Shown one piece after another: positions 38,625-48,650 of a DNA stretch of 64,000 bases. Both the position numbers and the translations under genes were made by a program. The notes under the pieces were generated by a model. The model did no database searches and was not told the DNA's origin. It was given only the letters and a program-made list of their open reading frames with translations. How positions within the stretch are numbered: position 1 is the stretch's first letter; each line of letters begins with the position of its first letter. The stretch is from assembly GCF_000365025.1 (NCBI RefSeq), contig NZ_KB823011.1:496001-560000 (forward strand), in the 5' to 3' direction. The DNA comes from Robiginitomaculum antarcticum DSM 21748. GTDB taxonomy: Bacteria > Pseudomonadota > Alphaproteobacteria > Caulobacterales > Maricaulaceae.

Positions 38625-39071
38625 TTAACGCTCTAAGTTTAGGGCCGCTTCGCCCAATTTCGTCAGTATCGCATCCAAGGCGCTATGCTCTGTTTCAGAC
38701 AAACGATCCAGTAATTTCGTCTCATAAGCCCGAGCCAGCGGCATGACTTCCGCGTATATTTCACGGCCGCGCTGGGTCAGAACAATATTGTGCAGCCGTT
38801 TATCATAATCTGAAGGAATGCGGAGTACGAACCCTTTATCGACCAAGCCTTTAACCGCCCGGGAGACCGACATTTTATCCATGAGTGTAATCTGGCAAAT
38901 CTCCGACGACGAGCGCGGCTCGTCCTGCGCCGCGACCACCATGACGCGCCATTCATTCAGCCTAAGACCGAAGCGCTGCCCGTATTCACGTGCAATCAAT
39001 CCGCTTACCCGCCGTGACAAAATGGATAACTGGTAGGGCAGAAAGGATTTTAAATCGAAATTTGATGACAT
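38625..39071 (-). CDS. MarR-family transcriptional regulator
   Basis: A 148-residue winged-helix regulator: dimerisation helix at the N-terminus, a helix-turn-helix (SSSEICQITLMDKMSVSRAV), then a wing with DYDKRLHNIVLTQRG, where the D-x-R motif is standard. AGGAG lies 8 bases before the ATG. It faces the crtY start across 101 bases that contain a 10-bp inverted repeat, so it is a likely regulator of crtYIB and of itself. The ligand is unknown. Confidence 0.88.
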   Translation of the reverse strand: MSSNFDLKSFLPYQLSILSRRVSGLIAREYGQRFGLRLNEWRVMVVAAQDEPRSSSEICQITLMDKMSVSRAVKGLVDKGFVLRIPSDYDKRLHNIVLTQRGREIYAEVMPLARAYETKLLDRLSETEHSALDAILTKLGEAALNLER

Positions 39072-39172: not shown

Positions 39173-40399
39173 ATGAATACGCAGTCGGATATGATTATTG
39201 TTGGCGCCGGGCTTTCGGGTCTTTTGACGGCGTGGCGGTGCTTTGATGCTAATCCCGAGATAGAAATTTTAGTCATTGAGGCCAGCGGCCGTATCGCCGG
39301 CGACCATACATGGTCATTCAACCTAACCGATATTCCTGAACATCTGAATGACTGGATTTCGCCATTTATAGCTTACCAATGGAGTTGCTATGATGTGAAA
39401 TTTCCCAAACGGGAGCGCACATTAGAAATACCATACTGCACGGGGAACAGCGATACGCTCCGCGCCTGTGTTCAGCCTCATATTAATAGCGGGCGATTGA
39501 AAGTTCTGCTCAATACAAAAGTTACTAAAATCGACTCAACATCTGTGATGACAGAAACAGGCCGGCGCTATGGTGCAAAATGCGTATTAGATGCGCGCGG
39601 CTTTAAGCCCAATGACAATGTTTTTCTTGGCTATCAGAAATTCGTCGGCCACGTCATCAAGACGGTAGAGCCACATGGTATTGAGCGCCCCATTATCATG
39701 GACGCCACAGTTAAGCAGTTCGGCGGATACCGTTTTGTCTATTGCCTGCCGTTTACCGATACCGAAATGCTGGTTGAGGATACATATTACACAGACGGGC
39801 CGGAGCTGCGACGCCAAGAGATTGATGCGCGGATCAAAGACTATATCCGCGATAATCTGGGTATGTATGACTATGAAGTTATTCAACGCGAGAAGGGGGT
39901 CTTGCCCATAACTCTTGCAGTGGATGAAAACGCTTTTGACAATGATAGGGATTGGTCAAAAAGAGAAATAGGAATACGCGGTGGATTTTACCACGCGATT
40001 TCCGGGTACAGTCTTCCAGATGCACTAATAATTGCTGATATTATTTCAGAAGAAATTTCAGAAGGTTTCGAAGATTATCCAGAAAACCCATTCAAAAATA
40101 TTGATACAATATTTCCAGCTGTTCAAATAGGGCATTTTGAAAATGAACGCTTTCTTCGTCTCCTCAATCGAATGTTGTTTCGCGCGGCAAAGCCTGAGGG
40201 TCGATACAAAATTCTGCAAAGATTCTATGGCCTTAGTGATGGTCTTATAAAGCGTTTTTATGCCAATGAACTTAAAAGGCGCGACAAAGTGCGAATTCTC
40301 ATCGGAAAGCCGCCTGTGCCCGTATCTAAAGCGCTGTATAATTTCAGCGAGAAAGCCTTTATCAAGCGCGAGCGCGCAGCACGGACACAAAATCAATGA
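39173..40399 (+). CDS. crtY: Lycopene beta-cyclase CrtY
   Basis: A 408-residue FAD-dependent membrane-associated enzyme that turns lycopene into beta-carotene. Motifs: dinucleotide-binding MIIVGAGLSGLLTAW, GDHTWSFN, VLDARGF, YQKFVGHVIK, and VEDTYYTDG. The ribosome binding site is weak. Its 3' end overlaps crtI by 4 bases. The stretch 40021-40140 is much more AT-rich than its surroundings (about 36 of 120 bases are G or C by hand count), yet the frame is intact. Confidence 0.95.
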   Translation: MNTQSDMIIVGAGLSGLLTAWRCFDANPEIEILVIEASGRIAGDHTWSFNLTDIPEHLNDWISPFIAYQWSCYDVKFPKRERTLEIPYCTGNSDTLRACVQPHINSGRLKVLLNTKVTKIDSTSVMTETGRRYGAKCVLDARGFKPNDNVFLGYQKFVGHVIKTVEPHGIERPIIMDATVKQFGGYRFVYCLPFTDTEMLVEDTYYTDGPELRRQEIDARIKDYIRDNLGMYDYEVIQREKGVLPITLAVDENAFDNDRDWSKREIGIRGGFYHAISGYSLPDALIIADIISEEISEGFEDYPENPFKNIDTIFPAVQIGHFENERFLRLLNRMLFRAAKPEGRYKILQRFYGLSDGLIKRFYANELKRRDKVRILIGKPPVPVSKALYNFSEKAFIKRERAARTQNQ

Positions 40400-41937
40400 A
40401 CGCTATGACTAAAATTACACCAAAGTCTAAATCAGAGATAAAGCCAACAGCGGTAGTCGTCGGCGCAGGGTTTGGCGGGATTGCGCTTGCAATACGGTTG
40501 CAAGTCATGGGGTTCCAGACGACATTACTGGATAACCGCGACAAACCTGGTGGCCGCGCTTATGTTTATGAAATTGACGGCTATAAATTTGACGGCGGGC
40601 CAACCGTCATCACTGATCCGGATTGCTTAAAAGAGCTGTTTCAACTGGCCGGTAAGTCCATGTACGATTACGTCACCTTGCTGCCCGTCGATCCGTTTTA
40701 CCGCCTGCAATGGGAAGATGGTGACGTTCTGGATTACGCCGCCAGTCAAGAGGAATTAGAGGCGCAGATAGCAGATAAAAACCCTGATGATGTAGTGGGT
40801 TACCGCCGTTTCCTAGACTATTCCAAGGAGCTTTACCGCGAGGGATATGAAAAGCTGGGCACGACCGCATTCCTGCATATTAGCCAGATGCTCGCTGCCG
40901 CTCCACAGCTTGTGCGACTTCGCGCCGATCGCAGCGTCTATACTCAGGTCAGCAAATTCGTAAAAAACGAGAAGATCCGGCAACTTCTATCTTTTCAATC
41001 GCTACTCGTAGGCGGCAATCCTTTTGCAACGAGCGCTATTTACGCCCTGATTCACGCACTCGAACGCAAGGGCGGCGTTTGGTTCGCTAAGGGTGGCACA
41101 GGCGCTTTGGTTGAAGGGCTTGTCAGTTTATTCAAAGACATAGGCGGACAAGTGCAGCTGAATTCTGAAGTCACAGATATCCATACGGCTGGCGACCGTG
41201 TTACGGGCGTAACCATTGAAGGCGGCCAGACATTGCCGGCAGATTTAGTCGCGTCTAACGCTGATGTCGTACATACATATTCCAAACTTTTGCGCGGCCA
41301 CAAACGTGGGCAGAGCTATGGTAAATCGCTCGCGAAAAAGCGCCACTCTATGTCACTTTTCGTCATTTATTTTGGTCTCAACACCACTCATCCGGATATG
41401 AAACATCATATCATTTTGTTCGGACAGCGTTATAAAGAGCTGATTGCCGAGATATTTGGCAAGGGCGGAGAACTGCCGGATGATTTCTCGCTGTATCTCC
41501 ATGCGCCCTGCGTCACCGATCCCGATATGGCGCCCGAAGGAAAGTCTGCCTATTACGTTCTCGCGCCGGTCCCGCATTTAGGTCACGTTGATATTGATTG
41601 GGACGAAGTCGGCCCGGTATATACGCAAAAAATTCTAGATTATCTTGAAGAGCACGCCATACCGAACCTCAATCGTGATGTTGACGTACTGCATACGCTG
41701 ACGCCATTTGGATTTCGTGACATTATGAATGCCCATCACGGTAGCGCGTTTTCTGTCGAGCCTATACTCACACAATCGGCTTGGTTCAGGCCTCATAACC
41801 GTGATGACGTGATTGGCAATATGTATATTACCGGCGCAGGGACTCATCCCGGCGCGGGCGTTCCGGGCGTTGTCGGCGCGGCGAAAGCCACAGCCGGCGT
41901 CATTGCCGATGATTTCAGAGCCCAATTGAAAGGTTAG
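40396..41937 (+). CDS. crtI: Phytoene desaturase CrtI
   Basis: A 513-residue FAD-dependent desaturase converting phytoene to lycopene (or neurosporene). N-terminal FAD motif VVGAGFGGIALAIRLQ with DKPGGRAYVYE and FDGGPTVIT; C-terminal motif YITGAGTHPGAGVPGVVGAA. It overlaps crtY by 4 bases and is followed 2 bases later by a DUF1993 gene. The number of desaturation steps cannot be told from sequence; the presence of crtY argues for a four-step, lycopene-producing enzyme. Confidence 0.97.
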   Translation: MNAMTKITPKSKSEIKPTAVVVGAGFGGIALAIRLQVMGFQTTLLDNRDKPGGRAYVYEIDGYKFDGGPTVITDPDCLKELFQLAGKSMYDYVTLLPVDPFYRLQWEDGDVLDYAASQEELEAQIADKNPDDVVGYRRFLDYSKELYREGYEKLGTTAFLHISQMLAAAPQLVRLRADRSVYTQVSKFVKNEKIRQLLSFQSLLVGGNPFATSAIYALIHALERKGGVWFAKGGTGALVEGLVSLFKDIGGQVQLNSEVTDIHTAGDRVTGVTIEGGQTLPADLVASNADVVHTYSKLLRGHKRGQSYGKSLAKKRHSMSLFVIYFGLNTTHPDMKHHIILFGQRYKELIAEIFGKGGELPDDFSLYLHAPCVTDPDMAPEGKSAYYVLAPVPHLGHVDIDWDEVGPVYTQKILDYLEEHAIPNLNRDVDVLHTLTPFGFRDIMNAHHGSAFSVEPILTQSAWFRPHNRDDVIGNMYITGAGTHPGAGVPGVVGAAKATAGVIADDFRAQLKG

Positions 41938-41939
41938 TT

Positions 41940-42449
41940 ATGTCTACTTTATCTATGTCCAATGCCGTCGGCGCGCTGCCACGTCTCCTTGATAATCTTG
42001 AGCACATTTTGCGCATAGGTGAGGCCAATGCAAAAGAGCGCGGTATTGATCCATCCATATTTCTAAACGCCCGCCTTGCCCCCGATATGCATCACCTGAT
42101 CAAACAGGTTCAGATCGCAAGCTCGCTGACTAAAATGGCGCCGTACCGCATAACGGGCATGGAGCCGCCCGCCTATGAAGAAACTGAGACTACATTTAAT
42201 GATCTCTATGTTTTAATTGCCAAAGCCAAAGCCGACTGCATGGCGGTGCCGGCTTCTGATCTTGACGGCAAAGAAGGCCGCAAGTTCGTTCTTAAAATGG
42301 GCCCGCGGGATATGGACTTTACCGGCATTAGTTATTTGTCGGGCTTCACACTCCCAAACATCCATTTCCACATCACGACAGCCTATAATATTTTGCGGCA
42401 TAATGGCGTGCCTCTGGGTAAAGCCGATTATTTCGGTGGAATGACGTAA
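41940..42449 (+). CDS. DUF1993-type protein in the carotenoid operon
   Basis: A 169-residue soluble protein that I recognise as DUF1993-like, a DinB/YfiT-type helical-bundle fold: LPRLLDNLEHILRIGEANAK, LAPDMHHLIKQVQIASS, and FHITTAYNILRHNGVPLGKADYFGG at the end. Several histidines (M-H-H and FH-x-T) sit where related proteins bind metal. No activity is known for the family. It lies 2 bases after crtI and 7 before crtB, inside the carotenoid operon. Whether it acts on carotenoids or is a passenger is unknown. Confidence 0.85.
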   Translation: MSTLSMSNAVGALPRLLDNLEHILRIGEANAKERGIDPSIFLNARLAPDMHHLIKQVQIASSLTKMAPYRITGMEPPAYEETETTFNDLYVLIAKAKADCMAVPASDLDGKEGRKFVLKMGPRDMDFTGISYLSGFTLPNIHFHITTAYNILRHNGVPLGKADYFGGMT

Positions 42450-42456
42450 ATACGGC

Positions 42457-43383
42457 ATGGACGCTGTCACTGCACATGGTCATTCTGCGATAAAGCAAGG
42501 CAGCAAAAGTTTTGCGCTCGCCAGTCGGGCTTTGCCGCCCGCGTTGCGCGATGATGCATCCATGCTTTATGCGTGGTGCCGCTATTGCGACGATGTGATT
42601 GACGGCCAGATTATGGGCCATGAGCAAATCGCGGATTACAAACTAGGGCAGGGCGAGCGTTTGGAGCGTCTGCGTGCCGAAACGGCGGCCGCGTTAAACG
42701 GCGAGCCAACAGACAATCCGATATATGCAGGACTAGCGCGCGTTTTTAAAACGCATGACATTAACCATAAACATGCTTTTGAGCTTCTCAAAGGGTTTGA
42801 GATGGACGCGCAAGACCGGGTATATAAAACGGTCAATGATATTTTGGATTATAGCTACCATGTCGCCGGCGTAGTCGGCGTGATGATGGCCAATATTATG
42901 GGCGTGCGAGATGACGCCACGCTTGACCGCGCCAGTGATCTGGGACTGGCCTTCCAACTTACTAATATCGCCCGCGACTTAGTTGATGATGCCCGTGCAG
43001 ACCGTGTTTTTATCCCGCAGGATCTGCTAAACGCCGCAGGCGCACCGCTTACGGCTCATGAGCTGGCGAAGCCTGAGAACTGGCCTGCCGCGCATAAGGC
43101 AGCGATGGCGCAGCTTGATATTGCCGAAGCCTATTATGACAGCGCAAAAGCAGGGGTTAAAGAACTGCCGTTTCGCTGTGCCTGGGCGATCAGCGCTGCG
43201 CTATCCGTGTATCGCGAGATCGGACAAAGACTGCGCGAAGGCGGGCCTCAGGCTTGGGAGGGCCGTGTTAGCGCCAGCAAACCGCGAAAAATTACATTGG
43301 CCCTCGGTGCCGTTGGCCCTGCTTTAACGCGAAAAAAAGCAATAGAGACATCTAGGGAAATGTTTTATCAACGTCCGCTTTAG
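42457..43383 (+). CDS. crtB: Phytoene synthase CrtB
   Basis: A 308-residue squalene/phytoene synthase family enzyme that joins two geranylgeranyl diphosphates. The first aspartate-rich motif is in YAWCRYCDDVIDG and the second in NIARDLVDDARADRVFIPQD; the SKSFALASR start region is typical. It ends the crtY-crtI-DUF1993-crtB unit, and its last 32 bases overlap the convergent small membrane gene. Confidence 0.96.
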   Translation: MDAVTAHGHSAIKQGSKSFALASRALPPALRDDASMLYAWCRYCDDVIDGQIMGHEQIADYKLGQGERLERLRAETAAALNGEPTDNPIYAGLARVFKTHDINHKHAFELLKGFEMDAQDRVYKTVNDILDYSYHVAGVVGVMMANIMGVRDDATLDRASDLGLAFQLTNIARDLVDDARADRVFIPQDLLNAAGAPLTAHELAKPENWPAAHKAAMAQLDIAEAYYDSAKAGVKELPFRCAWAISAALSVYREIGQRLREGGPQAWEGRVSASKPRKITLALGAVGPALTRKKAIETSREMFYQRPL

Positions 43384-43672
43384 CTTCATTTCTAATGTAG
43401 AAAATACGCTTCACGACATGAATGATTAAAATAATCAGCCCGAGCACAATAACGGCATATAGAGCGTTCATAACCGACACATACAGCGCCTGACTTGTCG
43501 CGAGTTCCGTCGGAACGTCGCTGGCGATCATGGCATTGCGTATTTTACCGAAATTTGAACCGACGTGAATAATAAAAAAGAGTTGCAGAGCTGTGATCGT
43601 CGCCATGATCGGTCGAGCGCTCCACAGCACGACAATCGATAAGGTGAGCACAAAAGCCAGCGGGATAATCAT
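43352..43672 (-). CDS. Small three-helix membrane protein after crtZ, function unknown
   Basis: A 106-residue hydrophobic protein with helices at about residues 3-18, 22-37 and 68-92, and a charged C-terminal tail (RNEAKADVDKTFP). Its ATG overlaps the crtZ stop (ATGA at 43669-43672) and it is the last gene of the crtE-to-crtZ unit; its 3' end overlaps convergent crtB by 32 bases. I do not recognise the family. The tight coupling suggests it works with CrtZ or CrtW in the membrane. Confidence 0.72.
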   Translation of the reverse strand: MIIPLAFVLTLSIVVLWSARPIMATITALQLFFIIHVGSNFGKIRNAMIASDVPTELATSQALYVSVMNALYAVIVLGLIILIIHVVKRIFYIRNEAKADVDKTFP

Positions 43673-44133
43673 GCCGCTTTTTTGGCTTTCAGTTGCGCTT
43701 TCAGCACGTCCGGTTTTTCAGCCCAAAGAAAGCCAAAACTGACCGCGCCGTGTTTAGTGGTGACGTGATGATGCATGCGGTGGGCGAGTATGAGACGGTA
43801 AAGATAGCCGCGTTTGACGGTGATCCGAAAGGGCCAGCGTTGATGGACTAATCCATCATGGACGAAGCCATAAAGAATACCATAAATCGTAAAGCCAAGA
43901 GCGATATACCAGAGTGGCATCCAGTACAGGCTGCCTAATACAAATAGCGCTGCCGCAATCACGCTGAACCACACAGCGTAGAGGTCATTGGTCTCAAAAT
44001 AGCCTTCCGTATGTTTATGGTGGCTTTCATGCCAGCCCCAGCCCGGGCCGTGCATATAAAATTTGTGAAACAGCAGTGCGAAGACTTCCATCCCGATAAC
44101 GCTTACCACGACAATGACGATATTTCCGATCAT
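43669..44133 (-). CDS. crtZ: Beta-carotene hydroxylase CrtZ
   Basis: A 154-residue di-iron membrane hydroxylase that adds 3-hydroxyl groups to beta-ionone rings. The four histidine motifs are complete: HKFYMH, HESHHK, HDGLVH and HRMHHH. The frame is open to 44184, but the ATG at 44133 overlaps the crtW stop as ATGA and yields the usual length. With CrtW it gives astaxanthin from beta-carotene. The C-terminus is Lys/Ala-rich. Confidence 0.95.
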   Translation of the reverse strand: MIGNIVIVVVSVIGMEVFALLFHKFYMHGPGWGWHESHHKHTEGYFETNDLYAVWFSVIAAALFVLGSLYWMPLWYIALGFTIYGILYGFVHDGLVHQRWPFRITVKRGYLYRLILAHRMHHHVTTKHGAVSFGFLWAEKPDVLKAQLKAKKAA

Positions 44134-44870
44134 TTCGTATGCGCCTTTCGTGTCTCCGCGCGGCGGCGTGGTAGTCGCCACCACGGCTCATAGGGATAAA
44201 GATGATGTTCATGGTGATACCCGAAGTGAAAACACGACAGCAGCGATCCAAGCCAGTTATAATCATTTGAGCGCGCATTATGGTGGTCGGCAAATGCCTC
44301 GCCATGACGGTGCGGTAGATAGGTACCAAAATAGAAAAGCTGCAGCGCGGAAAGAAGCGCGGGCAGGGCCCAAAACAGCAATATATTTGAATAGGCCGCG
44401 CCAAATACAAGCATATATATCAATGCCATAGCTGTAATAATCGCCATTTGCGCCCAGCCAAAATAGGTCAGGAACCAGCGTAGGAACCACGGCGCAAAAT
44501 TATGCGGGTTATCGGCGTTAAAATCGGGATCATCCGCTGTGCCCGGATTATCATGATGAGCATGATGGGCGCGGCGCATTTTCGGCCAGTGGAATCCCGC
44601 ATAAACCAGCAAAATCGCCTGTCCAACACCGTGGTTGGCTTTGGGGTGATGGGGGAAAAGCGAGCCATGCATGGAATCATGGGCAACGATAAACATTCCG
44701 GCATAAAGCCAAACCTGTAGCGCAATTGCGCTAATGTTAAACAATGGATGAGCCGCGCGCCAGTCAAATCCGAAAATCAAAAATATATGAAGTGCAAGCC
44801 ATCCTCCACACACCAAACCCGCCAGCACAAGGCCGGGCCAGTAAGTCGGTATATGAGTTGTATGAGACAA
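44130..44870 (-). CDS. crtW: Beta-carotene ketolase CrtW
   Basis: A 246-residue membrane di-iron ketolase that adds 4-oxo groups to beta-ionone rings. Histidine motifs: HDSMHGS, RRAHHAHHDNPGT and FHFGYHHEHHLYP. The longest frame begins at ATG 44939, but that would overlap the permease gene by 67 bases. A TTG at 44870 lies just past the permease stop, has GAGG 8 bases upstream, and gives a protein beginning MSHTTHIPTYWPGL, of normal CrtW length. I prefer the TTG start. Its stop overlaps crtZ by 4 bases. Confidence 0.93.
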   Translation of the reverse strand: MSHTTHIPTYWPGLVLAGLVCGGWLALHIFLIFGFDWRAAHPLFNISAIALQVWLYAGMFIVAHDSMHGSLFPHHPKANHGVGQAILLVYAGFHWPKMRRAHHAHHDNPGTADDPDFNADNPHNFAPWFLRWFLTYFGWAQMAIITAMALIYMLVFGAAYSNILLFWALPALLSALQLFYFGTYLPHRHGEAFADHHNARSNDYNWLGSLLSCFHFGYHHEHHLYPYEPWWRLPRRRAETRKAHTK

Positions 44871-44872
44871 TT

Positions 44873-46084
44873 CTAAAACCTCATCAGGCGGTGGGACAGT
44901 ACGCTGGCGCTTATCAGCGCAATGACCGTTATGGCGCAAAGTATAGCAAGAGCAGGCGCAACCGCCAATATGTTAGAACCGCGCGCGAGCGAGGCGTAAT
45001 AGGCCTCTATCGCCCATGCATTTGGGGTAAAATTCCCTAGAGTTTGAAGCCATGTCGGCATCATGAACCGAGGTATCATAGATCCGCCTATGGCCGAGAA
45101 TAATAGCACAAGAAATGTCGCTAAGGTATTCATTTGTATCGTATTCTTTGCTATCGTGCTCACCAGTAGAGCGAGTGCGGCGCAGGCGCCTGAGACGATT
45201 AGGCTGATGATCGCCAGCAGCAAGACGGCGTCAAACACAGGTACGCCAAAACCAATTGCCGCGACAATAAGAATAACCCAGGCCTGTACAAATCCTTGGG
45301 CAGTGAGATAGAAAAACTTACCGGTCATCATCGCCATAGCCCCGCTCGGACCAAGTAAAAGGCGATCCGTAATGCCGCTACCGCGCTCTTCCAGCGATAT
45401 TGCAGCGCCGTGCATGGCCGAAAACAGCAGGAACATAGCTATAGTTGCTCCGGCGTAATAAGCGATAGACGGGTCGTCTATAATGCCTGTCTCGCCGGAC
45501 GCTCTGGCGCTATGTGTCGTTATTAGGCCGAGCGGCCCGTCAGTTACATTCAGCGCGCCACCTTCGGCTTGAATAAGCACGATATTGACGCGGGTCTGTT
45601 GTTTGTCAGTCAACGGCCCTGTCGCGCGACCGGAAAACATTAGGCTTTCCCGTATTAGAAGGTCAGGCCGCGTCTCGGATAGAAAGGCGCGCAGTTGGCC
45701 GCGCAATACATCACCGGCGATCTTACGGCTCGGCTCAGTTACAATTATAATCGGGGCGCTTTGCGTATCGGCTATATCGCCGCGCAGGATAATACCCGCA
45801 TCGTAACGCCCCATGCGCACATCATCGAAGACCGTGTCTGGATCCGCGGCCCATTGCGTCTGAAACGGCGCGTCACGGGCAATCTGGGCGGCCAGATTTT
45901 GCGTCGCCATAGAGGGACTGTCCACCGCCATAATAATGCGTAAATCCAGATCGCCGCCGGCGGCATTGTCAAAAATGGTCGCAAATATTGCAAAGATAAA
46001 TCCGGGCAATAAAAACGCCATAGCCATAGCGCCTTTGTCGCGCCAGAGACGCAGAAACAAAGTATAAAAAACGGCACGGATCAT
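44873..46084 (-). CDS. ABC-2 type transporter permease inside the carotenoid operon
   Basis: A 403-residue membrane protein of the ABC-2/YhhJ-like type: one N-terminal helix (AMAMAFLLPGFIFAIFATIF), a periplasmic domain of roughly 140 residues, then five or six helices with QMNTLATFLVLLFSAIGGSM and LQTLGNFTPNAWAIEAY, a motif frequent in this family. The frame is open to 46111, but the ATG at 46084 overlaps the ATPase stop as ATGA. Together with the ATPase it forms a putative exporter. The substrate is unknown; a carotenoid, a lipid or an unrelated toxic compound are possible. Confidence 0.88.
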   Translation of the reverse strand: MIRAVFYTLFLRLWRDKGAMAMAFLLPGFIFAIFATIFDNAAGGDLDLRIIMAVDSPSMATQNLAAQIARDAPFQTQWAADPDTVFDDVRMGRYDAGIILRGDIADTQSAPIIIVTEPSRKIAGDVLRGQLRAFLSETRPDLLIRESLMFSGRATGPLTDKQQTRVNIVLIQAEGGALNVTDGPLGLITTHSARASGETGIIDDPSIAYYAGATIAMFLLFSAMHGAAISLEERGSGITDRLLLGPSGAMAMMTGKFFYLTAQGFVQAWVILIVAAIGFGVPVFDAVLLLAIISLIVSGACAALALLVSTIAKNTIQMNTLATFLVLLFSAIGGSMIPRFMMPTWLQTLGNFTPNAWAIEAYYASLARGSNILAVAPALAILCAITVIALISASVLSHRLMRF

Positions 46085-47013
46085 GCGGCGGCCTTTGGGT
46101 CTGGACGACATAATTTATACATTAGGCTGCCTAATCCCGGTTCGCGTACGGCAATCTCCCGAACTTGGACGCCTGCCGCTTTGATCTGCGCGCTAATCGC
46201 TGGCAGCTCATCATCGGGTATCATTTTTCTAAGCTGACGCGGATGATCCGTGGTTTCAAATCCAAGCGCCGTTAGCGCCGTGACAGCGCCTATGTCGGGG
46301 ATAGCTTGAAGTGTGATGACACATTCTTTTTGGGATCCGAAAGTCTGTGACAGCAACGCTGACGGTGCGCCATAGCCGCATAAGTTTCCGTCGTTAAGTA
46401 GCAGGATTTTATCGCAATAATGCTCTGCGGCTTCTAGCTCGTGCGTGATGAGTAGTATTGTCATGCCCGATGCGGCAAGATCTTTGGCCGTTTTGTGAAT
46501 GGCGTCGCGGGCAGGGCTATCAACGCCTGCTGTCGGCTCGTCGAGGATTAAAAGCTTTGGCTCATGCAAGATTGCGGCGGCAAAATTTATGCGGCGTTTC
46601 ATGCCGCCGGAAAGCTCCGCTGCTTTGGTCTCGGCGCGGTTGGCCATGCCCACCCGTATTAAGGCCTCGCCAACACGCTTTGCAATCAGTTTGCGGGGCA
46701 GGCCGCAATATCCGGCAAAAACGCGCAGGTTTTCGGCGGCTGTCAAATGAGGATAGAGACCAATAGATTGCGGCACAAATCCAATAAATTTTCGGCTATC
46801 GACACCGCGTCGAATTTGCGTTCCGGCCACGCTAACATGACCCGAACTAGGCGAGATCAGTCCGCAAATTGTTTTAATTAAAGTGGTTTTTCCTGAGCCA
46901 TTTGGCCCGATTAATCCGATAAGCCCGCCTTGCTCAGCAGAAAAAGTCAGATTGTGTAAAACTGCGGTTTGCCCGTAATGAACGGTGACGCCGTCAATAT
47001 CGAGCGCGGTCAT
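46081..47013 (-). CDS. ABC transporter ATPase inside the carotenoid operon
   Basis: A 310-residue ABC ATPase: Walker A GPNGSGKTT, signature LSGGMKRRINFAAA, Walker B LLILDEPTAGVD, switch His in LLITHELEAAE. A C-terminal extension of about 85 residues follows the nucleotide-binding domain, as in CcmA/NatA/DrrA-like exporter ATPases. Its ATG shares a base with the crtE stop (TGATG), and its own stop overlaps the permease start, so crtE, ATPase and permease are translationally coupled. Confidence 0.92.
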   Translation of the reverse strand: MTALDIDGVTVHYGQTAVLHNLTFSAEQGGLIGLIGPNGSGKTTLIKTICGLISPSSGHVSVAGTQIRRGVDSRKFIGFVPQSIGLYPHLTAAENLRVFAGYCGLPRKLIAKRVGEALIRVGMANRAETKAAELSGGMKRRINFAAAILHEPKLLILDEPTAGVDSPARDAIHKTAKDLAASGMTILLITHELEAAEHYCDKILLLNDGNLCGYGAPSALLSQTFGSQKECVITLQAIPDIGAVTALTALGFETTDHPRQLRKMIPDDELPAISAQIKAAGVQVREIAVREPGLGSLMYKLCRPDPKAAA

Positions 47014-47918
47014 CAGCCCGTATCCGGCATTTTGAATTGCGCGGCGATCGTAGCGCGGATGAGCGAATTTTGCGCAACGCCCAAAGCGGTTAGGGCTTCA
47101 TCCGCTGATCGCAAATATCCGCGCAGACGCGTCTTGGCACCCACATGACCATCAAGCGCCAAAAGCGTGGCTTTGCCAATATCGCGATCAATGGTTTTTC
47201 CCGCTTGGACCTCGGTCATAAGTTGATCTTTGAGGTCATCGAGGAGCTGAAACGCCAAACCGATTTGCGATGAAAACTCCTGACAGTGATTGGTTTGGTC
47301 CTCATCCAAGTCGCAAATGTTCGCGGCAGCTAATATGCTGTAGTCAAATAAAGCGCCGGTTTTCAGGGCGTTGACTTGCTCAACATGAGCTGCATCAGCC
47401 GCCGTATTAATGTTTTCCAGATCTGCAACCTGTCCTGCAATCAGGCCATGTGACCCGACCGCGCGCGATAAAAGCTCTGTCAACTTTACCCGTGATTGCG
47501 CGCTAATCTGGTCAGTCCGCGCAATCACGCCATAGGCTCGGTTAAGAAGAGCAACCGCAGCCAGAATAGCTGTACTCTCGTCAAATTGTAAATGCGTCGT
47601 TGCAATGCCACGTCTGAGGTCGGCGTCATCCATACAGGGAAGATCATCCAGAATGAGCGAGGCCGTATGAACCATTTCCGCAGCGCAGCCTGCGTCCATT
47701 GCGGCATCTATATCACCGTCAAACTCAGCCGTGAGCAAGATGCAGAGCAGGGGTCGAAAGCGTTTCCCGGGCGCAAGCAGGCTGTGCGCGATGGCCGCAT
47801 TTAGGCGCGGGGCAAAATCGGACCCAATCGACAGATCCGTAAGACGCGTGTTCACGCGCGCCCGTATATCGGTAATCATATATTCGGGCTGAGCCGTTTG
47901 GTTTGCTGTGGCAGTCAT
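47013..47918 (-). CDS. crtE: Polyprenyl diphosphate synthase, probably GGPP synthase CrtE
   Basis: A 301-residue trans-prenyltransferase. The first aspartate-rich motif is at residues 91-98 (DDLPCMDD) and the second is in AFQLLDDLKDQ; GKRFRPLL and GLIAGQVADL are typical. By context it makes geranylgeranyl diphosphate for CrtB, though farnesyl diphosphate synthases share these motifs and chain length cannot be read with certainty. It is the first gene of the minus-strand carotenoid unit, preceded by a structured leader and divergent from dps. Confidence 0.9.
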   Translation of the reverse strand: MTATANQTAQPEYMITDIRARVNTRLTDLSIGSDFAPRLNAAIAHSLLAPGKRFRPLLCILLTAEFDGDIDAAMDAGCAAEMVHTASLILDDLPCMDDADLRRGIATTHLQFDESTAILAAVALLNRAYGVIARTDQISAQSRVKLTELLSRAVGSHGLIAGQVADLENINTAADAAHVEQVNALKTGALFDYSILAAANICDLDEDQTNHCQEFSSQIGLAFQLLDDLKDQLMTEVQAGKTIDRDIGKATLLALDGHVGAKTRLRGYLRSADEALTALGVAQNSLIRATIAAQFKMPDTG

Positions 47919-48047: not shown

Positions 48048-48173
48048 ACAGCGCTCAGACTTTAAAGGTTTTTATACCTGCGACGATATTACTGGTTAGG
48101 AGACGGAACATTGGGCCATAACCTTCGTTAAATACAGTATACCCACTAAAATAGAGTTTTGAGAGGACATCCC

Positions 48174-48650
48174 ATGCCACAACATTACGTCAATAATATG
48201 GATAAAAATACGCGCACAAAGTCACTCGATATTCTGATGCCGACACTCAGCTGCGCTATCGACCTTCAGGTCGCTATTAAGCAAGCGCATTGGACAATAA
48301 AAGGTCCAAGTTTTATCGGCCTTCATGAATTACTCGATCAAGTCGCAGCGCGCGCATATGAGCATTCTGACCTGATCGCAGAACGCATCGTGATTTTGGG
48401 CGGGCAACCCCGGGGAACTCTGCAAACAGTTACTAAAGATACGAAGCTGGACGCTTATCCGGTCGAGGCTACAGATCAAAAAGTGCACGTTGAAGAGCTG
48501 ACCAAACGTATCATGGTCTTCGGCGCGATGTGTCGTAAGGCGATTTCCGAAGCAGGGGATAATGGCGACGAGGACACAGCTGACTTATTTACTGGCATTA
48601 GCCGCAATCTCGATAAAGATGCATGGTTCATTGGCGCTCATAACGATTAG
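48174..48650 (+). CDS. dps: Dps-family DNA-protecting ferritin-like protein
   Basis: A 158-residue ferritin-like protein that stores iron, detoxifies peroxide and binds DNA in stress. Ferroxidase-region residues are seen in KQAHWTIKGPSFIGLHELLD and in EHSDLIAERIVILGGQP. The start is taken at ATG 48174 (GAGAGGA upstream) instead of 48159. It is divergent from crtE, so pigment and peroxide defence may share regulation. A strong terminator follows. Confidence 0.93.
   Translation: MPQHYVNNMDKNTRTKSLDILMPTLSCAIDLQVAIKQAHWTIKGPSFIGLHELLDQVAARAYEHSDLIAERIVILGGQPRGTLQTVTKDTKLDAYPVEATDQKVHVEELTKRIMVFGAMCRKAISEAGDNGDEDTADLFTGISRNLDKDAWFIGAHND

Follow-up and report, generated by a model that had tools for sequence, protein, structure and literature searches.

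A candidate carotenoid-dedicated ABC-2 exporter encoded beside crtE in Robiginitomaculum antarcticum and other Proteobacteria

Pathway descriptions in the literature that we examined, as far as the accessible text of these papers goes, list enzymes and end at the finished pigment, leaving its placement in the envelope of Gram negative bacteria unexplained. That ABC pumps can in principle move carotenoids is suggested by analogy with yeast, where extra Snq2 raised extracellular beta-carotene 5.8-fold according to the accessible part of PMC10742120, but this is an engineered system with no link to a carotenoid operon. For bacteria, one sentence in the accessible part of PMC4962014 states, without functional analysis, that Fulvimarina pelagi has ABC- and MFS-transporter genes adjoining crtZ and crtY, and the same paper mentions, for Sphingomonas astaxanthinifaciens, a gene for a putative carotenoid transporter. 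The word "transporter" is absent, by a term search, from the main text of two comparative genomics papers as available (PMC2889829 and PMC5989583). The first-pass annotation of the DNA studied here had regarded an ABC exporter in the pathway as undescribed; the passing mention for Fulvimarina qualifies this, and it is the sole mention of ABC transporter genes beside crt genes that we found in the accessible text of the open-access literature. A transporter clade beside carotenoid genes is a candidate for the missing transport step. Here we describe an ATPase and permease pair from a window of 64,000 nucleotides (the whole stretch of DNA analysed) of Robiginitomaculum antarcticum DSM 21748, which is probably an ABC-2 exporter of type V fold dedicated to carotenoids.

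The best match of the permease profile is the insect transporter ABCH-9C (Tribolium, PDB 8yzp; E about 1e-5), which is also the top structural match of our permease model (Z 23.3 with 339 residues aligned). The rmsd of 13.0, however, reflects a different orientation of the domains in the model, and ABCH-9C furthermore differs in being a single chain with a fused ATPase, in being ceramide-bound and in sharing 18% identity with the permease. Our model was built with AlphaFold2 from 37 sequences (mean pLDDT 88.9, pTM 0.81) and shows one N-terminal membrane helix, an alpha/beta domain at about residues 41-204, taken to be periplasmic, and five membrane helices. The predicted fold is that of a type V exporter with an additional domain following the first helix. 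Full copies of the permease have about 398-412 residues in the window's genus and 362-367 in other family members, the extra residues (about 137-185) lying in this domain.

The model also matches the type V fold of ABCA4 (Z 20.9, 3.8 A over 241 residues) and the NosDFY chain 7o12_E (Z 20.7, 3.5 A over 223 residues). Members of the ABCA family (ABCA4, ABCA1, ABCA3) are eukaryotic and much larger, and the ABCG proteins ABCG2 and ABCG25 match the model about equally, so the match to the ABCA fold is unspecific. The top structural matches include exporters of membrane lipids (ABCH-9C with its ceramide, ABCA4), which show the fold only. The ATPase profile is closest to ABCA as well, but the same holds for a control ATPase whose locus has no crt genes, so the ATPase gives no grounds for a special kinship with the retinal-carrying ABCA4. 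The DrrAB daunorubicin exporter is matched below cut-off by both proteins, the ATPase reaching 206.9 bits against DrrA (TIGR01188, cut-off 312.45) and the permease 44 bits against DrrB (TIGR01247, cut-off 223.05). DrrB, unlike the permease, is not known to have a large outer domain.

In the window the pair lies in a minus-strand unit with the order crtE, ABC ATPase, ABC-2 permease, crtW, crtZ and an open reading frame (ORF) of 106 amino acids, in which neighbours overlap or almost touch. The first gene (47013..47918) encodes a crtE-type polyprenyl diphosphate synthase (PF00348), whose NCBIfam scores of 225.5 bits for FPPsyn and 176.3 bits for CrtE are each below their own cut-off. The ATPase (46081..47013; PF00005, 119.7 bits) has a Walker A motif GPNGSGKT, a signature LSGGM and a Walker B motif LILDEP in its translation. 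The permease (44873..46084, 403 amino acids) exceeds the Pfam gathering scores of both PF12698 (91.8 bits, cut-off 31.6) and PF01061 (66.3 bits, cut-off 26.9), and the window's genome holds one single match to it. It is followed by crtW, a beta-carotene ketolase gene (44130..44870; NF045690 at 209.7 bits, under the 350-bit cut-off), and by crtZ of the beta-carotene hydroxylase type (43669..44184; PF04116), which relatives carry at the same position.

Facing this unit is a plus-strand set of crtY, crtI, a DUF1993 ORF and crtB (39173..43383; TIGR01789 at 381.8 bits, TIGR02734 at 671 bits, PF09351 and PF00494). The DUF1993 ORF (41940-42449) is separated from crtI and crtB by tiny gaps, and the same order is found in G061 (L246) and G100 (L041). 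The 106-amino-acid ORF at the end of the minus-strand unit (43352..43672) has hydrophobic stretches and no Pfam or NCBIfam match, and overlaps the end of crtB on the opposite strand; among 30 family loci it recurs only in G100, a member of the same genus (57% identical). A MarR-family regulator gene (38625-39071) adjoins crtY and a ferritin-like gene (48159-48650) begins divergently from crtE, a possible oxidative-stress setting for the pigment genes.

The gene junctions are as the first-pass annotation had described them: a base shared by crtE and the ATPase gene, a 4-base overlap within the pair and a 2-base gap before the TTG start of crtW. At the first of these (TGATG), base 47013 is both the A of the crtE TGA and the first base of the ATPase ATG. 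The second (ATGA) uses the permease start at 46084 (MIRAVF...), nine codons inside the longest ORF, which would begin at 46111 and overlap the ATPase gene by 31 bases. The relatives back the inner start, as 29 of 29 other alignment rows begin at the same column, with the caveat that their starts were picked by script near the aligned position. The permease stop codon TAG (44875-44873) is followed by AA and then by the crtW start at 44870. The end of crtW overlaps the longest frame of crtZ, which begins with GTG at 44184, and an alternative crtZ start, the ATG at 44133, would shorten the overlap to 4 bases; crtZ and the 106-amino-acid ORF likewise share 4 bases (43672-43669). Compared with a 67%-identical relative, the ATPase has a dN/dS of about 0.09, and dS is saturated for the permease, crtE and crtW in the same comparison. 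A scan for promoters and terminators found 9 and 10 sites where 6.2 and 6.7 were expected, and was uninformative.

When 137 family genomes were searched (permease matches at E 0.001), 65 of them gave some match. Thirty of these, spread over seven genera, stand apart, with E-values of 5.5e-52 or better and the next match at 8.3e-16. In all 30 loci, the window and 29 others, the pair adjoins one or more crt genes, and the order crtE-ATPase-permease-crtW is complete on every contig of sufficient length apart from two cases. G034 has crtZ directly after the pair and also carries crtB; crtW was not found in the genome and crtE was not seen in the fetched stretch. In G099 (L044, 1-840), of the window's own genus, crtE and the pair are followed by a facing glycosyltransferase gene and by neither crtW nor crtZ; crtW was not found in this genome, and crtY lies on a separate contig. 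Of the 30 pair-bearing genomes, 24 have a CrtY match that passes its cut-off, and these include every one of the 17 genomes with a completeness of 90% or more, G034 and G099 among them. The ATPase and permease genes overlap by 4 bases in 25 of 29 related loci, and permease and crtW are spaced by 0 or -1 bases in 21 of the 25 loci with crtW, whereas the distance between crtE and the ATPase gene varies more (-20 to 53 bases across 28 loci); the script-chosen starts bias these values toward short gaps.

The association was examined across the order in 299 genomes scored with the permease profile, and CrtY (TIGR01789 over cut-off) was counted in 299 genomes drawn in the same way, whose identifiers match as far as they were listed. 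The profile splits the order cleanly, with 35 genomes above 200 bits and the 58 other matching genomes below 90 bits. CrtY is found in 63 of the 299 genomes, and permeases above 200 bits occur in 35 of these 63 and in none of the other 236 (Fisher p about 1e-28, a value that overstates independence because the genomes are kin). This agrees with the original proposal that the pair belongs with the carotenoid genes. In all 35 loci, every one of which was inspected, crtE adjoins the ATPase gene. No crt gene was seen near seven of the best-scoring low-scoring loci in the order (L182-L188), near eight from the class and phylum searches (L237-L244) or near L040, that is in 0 of 16 inspected loci of relatives outside the carotenoid-linked clade.

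We also scanned 84,980 species, with one genome per species, using the permease alignment; the scan relied on two short peptide patterns and favours close relatives. It returned 63 loci, 62 of them with crt genes. The ATPase gene is directly preceded by crtE in 52 loci, and the permease gene is directly followed by crtW or crtZ in 55. Overall 38 loci show crtW and 57 show crtZ, and 20 have crtZ but no crtW; these counts are affected by contigs ending within some of the loci. Carriers include Hellea, Litorimonas, Aquisalinus, Devosia, Nitratireductor, Neorhizobium and Paracoccus albicereus, and also Halomonas, Vreelandella, Microbulbifer, Serpens, Aquisalimonas and Wenzhouxiangella. In Halomonas sulfidaeris (L117) crtE and the permease gene are each split into two ORFs, so this copy of the pair may be broken. 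The sole exception, L123, is a Phycisphaerales contig of 4.3 kb on which no crt gene was seen. Sparser samples of the class and the phylum gave 4 of 385 and 5 of 398 genomes above 200 bits, the window's genome and G655 being in both, and the class matches G495 and G598 repeat the order crtE-ATPase-permease-crtW-crtZ. A strain-specific insertion or chance linkage is ruled out by the conservation beside crt genes in the family, the order and the species-wide scan.

The permease tree has 64 rows, chosen by similarity to the family permeases and labelled by their neighbourhood: 45 from beside carotenoid genes (the G373 permease was entered twice), 18 unlinked ones from 16 loci, and L123. The 45 linked rows are separated from all the others by a branch with support 100/98 that is present in 200 of 200 bootstrap trees, and the window's permease, with crtE and crtW adjoining the pair, lies inside. 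The 18 unlinked rows fall outside and L123 just outside; some of the unlinked rows are long-branched, L040 most of all, so that their placements outside the clade are unsure. The carotenoid-linked clade covers Alpha- and Gammaproteobacteria. Two of the checks that the first-pass annotation had proposed, a survey of crtE-crtW intervals and a permease tree, thus speak for its suggestion: the arrangement reaches from Devosia to Halomonas, far beyond the family, and a carotenoid-linked clade exists. Neither of the outcomes it had named as counting against the suggestion, a pair limited to this strain or nearest relatives lying outside crt clusters, was found.

A different neighbourhood is seen in three genomes of one genus (G655, G884 and G899), where the pair lies between two CrtI-family genes with a glycosyltransferase gene near. 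In G655 both CrtI-family genes are over the TIGR02734 cut-off, and the glycosyltransferase matches HpnB and CruG below cut-off. The three permeases group with that of Microvirga ossetica (Methylobacteriaceae) with support 100/100. On a plasmid of the latter a DUF2141 gene, the ATPase gene and the permease gene face a carotenoid-type set annotated as ispH, an FAD oxidoreductase, a squalene/phytoene synthase family member, a glycosyltransferase, an acyltransferase, a methyltransferase and two crtI. We take this gene set to be a C30-type pathway, and the Microvirga-type loci look like clusters for another type of carotenoid. The DUF2141 gene stands directly before the ATPase gene in these loci (L251, 8578-8991; L232-L234), and weaker DUF2141 matches occur close to crt genes in L207 and L208, two loci that lack the pair. 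DUF2141 genes have also been described beside crtG in Sphingomonadales (PMC5989583, in its accessible part), and the protein is possibly a carotenoid partner outside the inner membrane.

We suggest that the pair forms a complex, presumably of two permeases and two ATPases, in which ATP binding would drive newly made carotenoid out of the cytoplasmic leaflet. The substrate would probably be the finished or nearly finished pigment, because the pair accompanies clusters with differing end products, namely of the zeaxanthin, astaxanthin and Microvirga types. Judging by gene content, astaxanthin cannot be the general substrate, since 20 of the 63 scan loci have crtZ without crtW and the Microvirga-type loci look different again. 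The carotenoid would reach the outer leaflet or beyond, where a long molecule with polar ends could extend across the membrane or be transferred further. More speculatively, the pigment might be handed toward the outer membrane with the permease's outer domain taking part, and in Microvirga-type loci the DUF2141 neighbour might help in this hand-over. That the pair is the first recognised dedicated carotenoid export system of Gram negative bacteria, specific to carotenoids, serving several types of them and starting a pigment route from the inner to the outer membrane, is a reading whose chances we put somewhat below even. If true, it would bear on pigment production, as membrane space limits the build-up of product (PMC11128114, in its accessible part).

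Another possibility is that the pair is a flippase which merely re-orients xanthophylls within the inner membrane, with no route to the outer membrane. The predicted fold is of a type able to flip lipids, and an unsystematic look at the inspected loci recognised no outer-membrane part or periplasmic carrier conserved beside the pair. The permease's outer domain would allow a hand-over, but a flippase fits equally well. We regard this possibility as serious but doubtful, and it overlaps in part with the exporter reading.

The pair might alternatively export a lipid or prenyl compound linked to the pathway, such as surplus prenyl diphosphate or a lipid displaced by pigment. Its frequent position right behind crtE, the absence of any other crt gene after the pair in G099 and the ceramide moved by its closest solved relative would all suit such a role. 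However, crtE was not seen in the Microvirga-type loci (stretches of about 20 kb), so carotenoid making, and not CrtE, is the common factor, which makes export of the CrtE product unlikely as the shared function. G034 likewise has the pair with crtZ and crtB and without crtE in the fetched stretch. Export of such a compound in place of a carotenoid therefore seems unlikely to us. Lastly, a drug or toxin efflux pump that merely travels with crt genes, as its best named ATPase family (DrrA, below cut-off) might suggest, is highly improbable given that all 35 order carriers are CrtY-positive, that one clade spans two proteobacterial classes and that the inspected relatives outside it have no crt neighbours.

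A dedicated carotenoid exporter need not accompany every pathway. In seven relatives (G015, G020, G021, G044, G046, G051 and G059) crtE is directly followed by crtW, with gaps of 29 to 295 bases by script coordinates, and crtZ comes after crtW in six of the seven, the contig of G015 stopping after crtW. The genes downstream are common to pair-bearing relatives, which identifies the site as the same locus minus the pair. The family search found no permease orthologue elsewhere in these seven genomes, the only distant match being in G059 (L040, E 8e-16). The three genes downstream of the empty sites were considered as a replacement transporter and rejected; the first of them is also present in 20 of 29 pair-bearing family loci. 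In the order sample, 28 of the 63 CrtY-positive genomes are without the pair. Together with the seven relatives this indicates that the pair is dispensable for pigment making: the pathway is kept without it and presumably runs without it. Twenty further loci from these 28 genomes have the permease in none; 16 of them carry crtB, crtI and crtY together, and crtY stands without crtB in L194, L195, L199 and L205. An ABC ATPase gene beside crtY in one pair-less genome (L209) was set aside: its product contains a TOBE domain and seems to belong to a different sort of transporter. The close relatives that lack the pair at the same locus are natural comparisons for its function.

Rhodopsin genes were found in 10 of the 137 family genomes, 9 of them over the cut-off. 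They are present in four of the seven clear losses (G015, G020, G021 and G059, and not G044, G046 or G051), against three of 30 pair-bearing genomes (G005, G019 and G060; p=0.015). G103 and G048, in which crtW lies at a contig end, had been left out of the seven; over nine pair-less genomes the figures are five of nine against three of 30 (p=0.009). The losses are probably few independent events, which weakens these statistics, and the greater frequency of rhodopsin where the pair was lost is suggestive only. The pair may be dropped where the cell needs its pigment in the inner membrane, for example near rhodopsin pumps.
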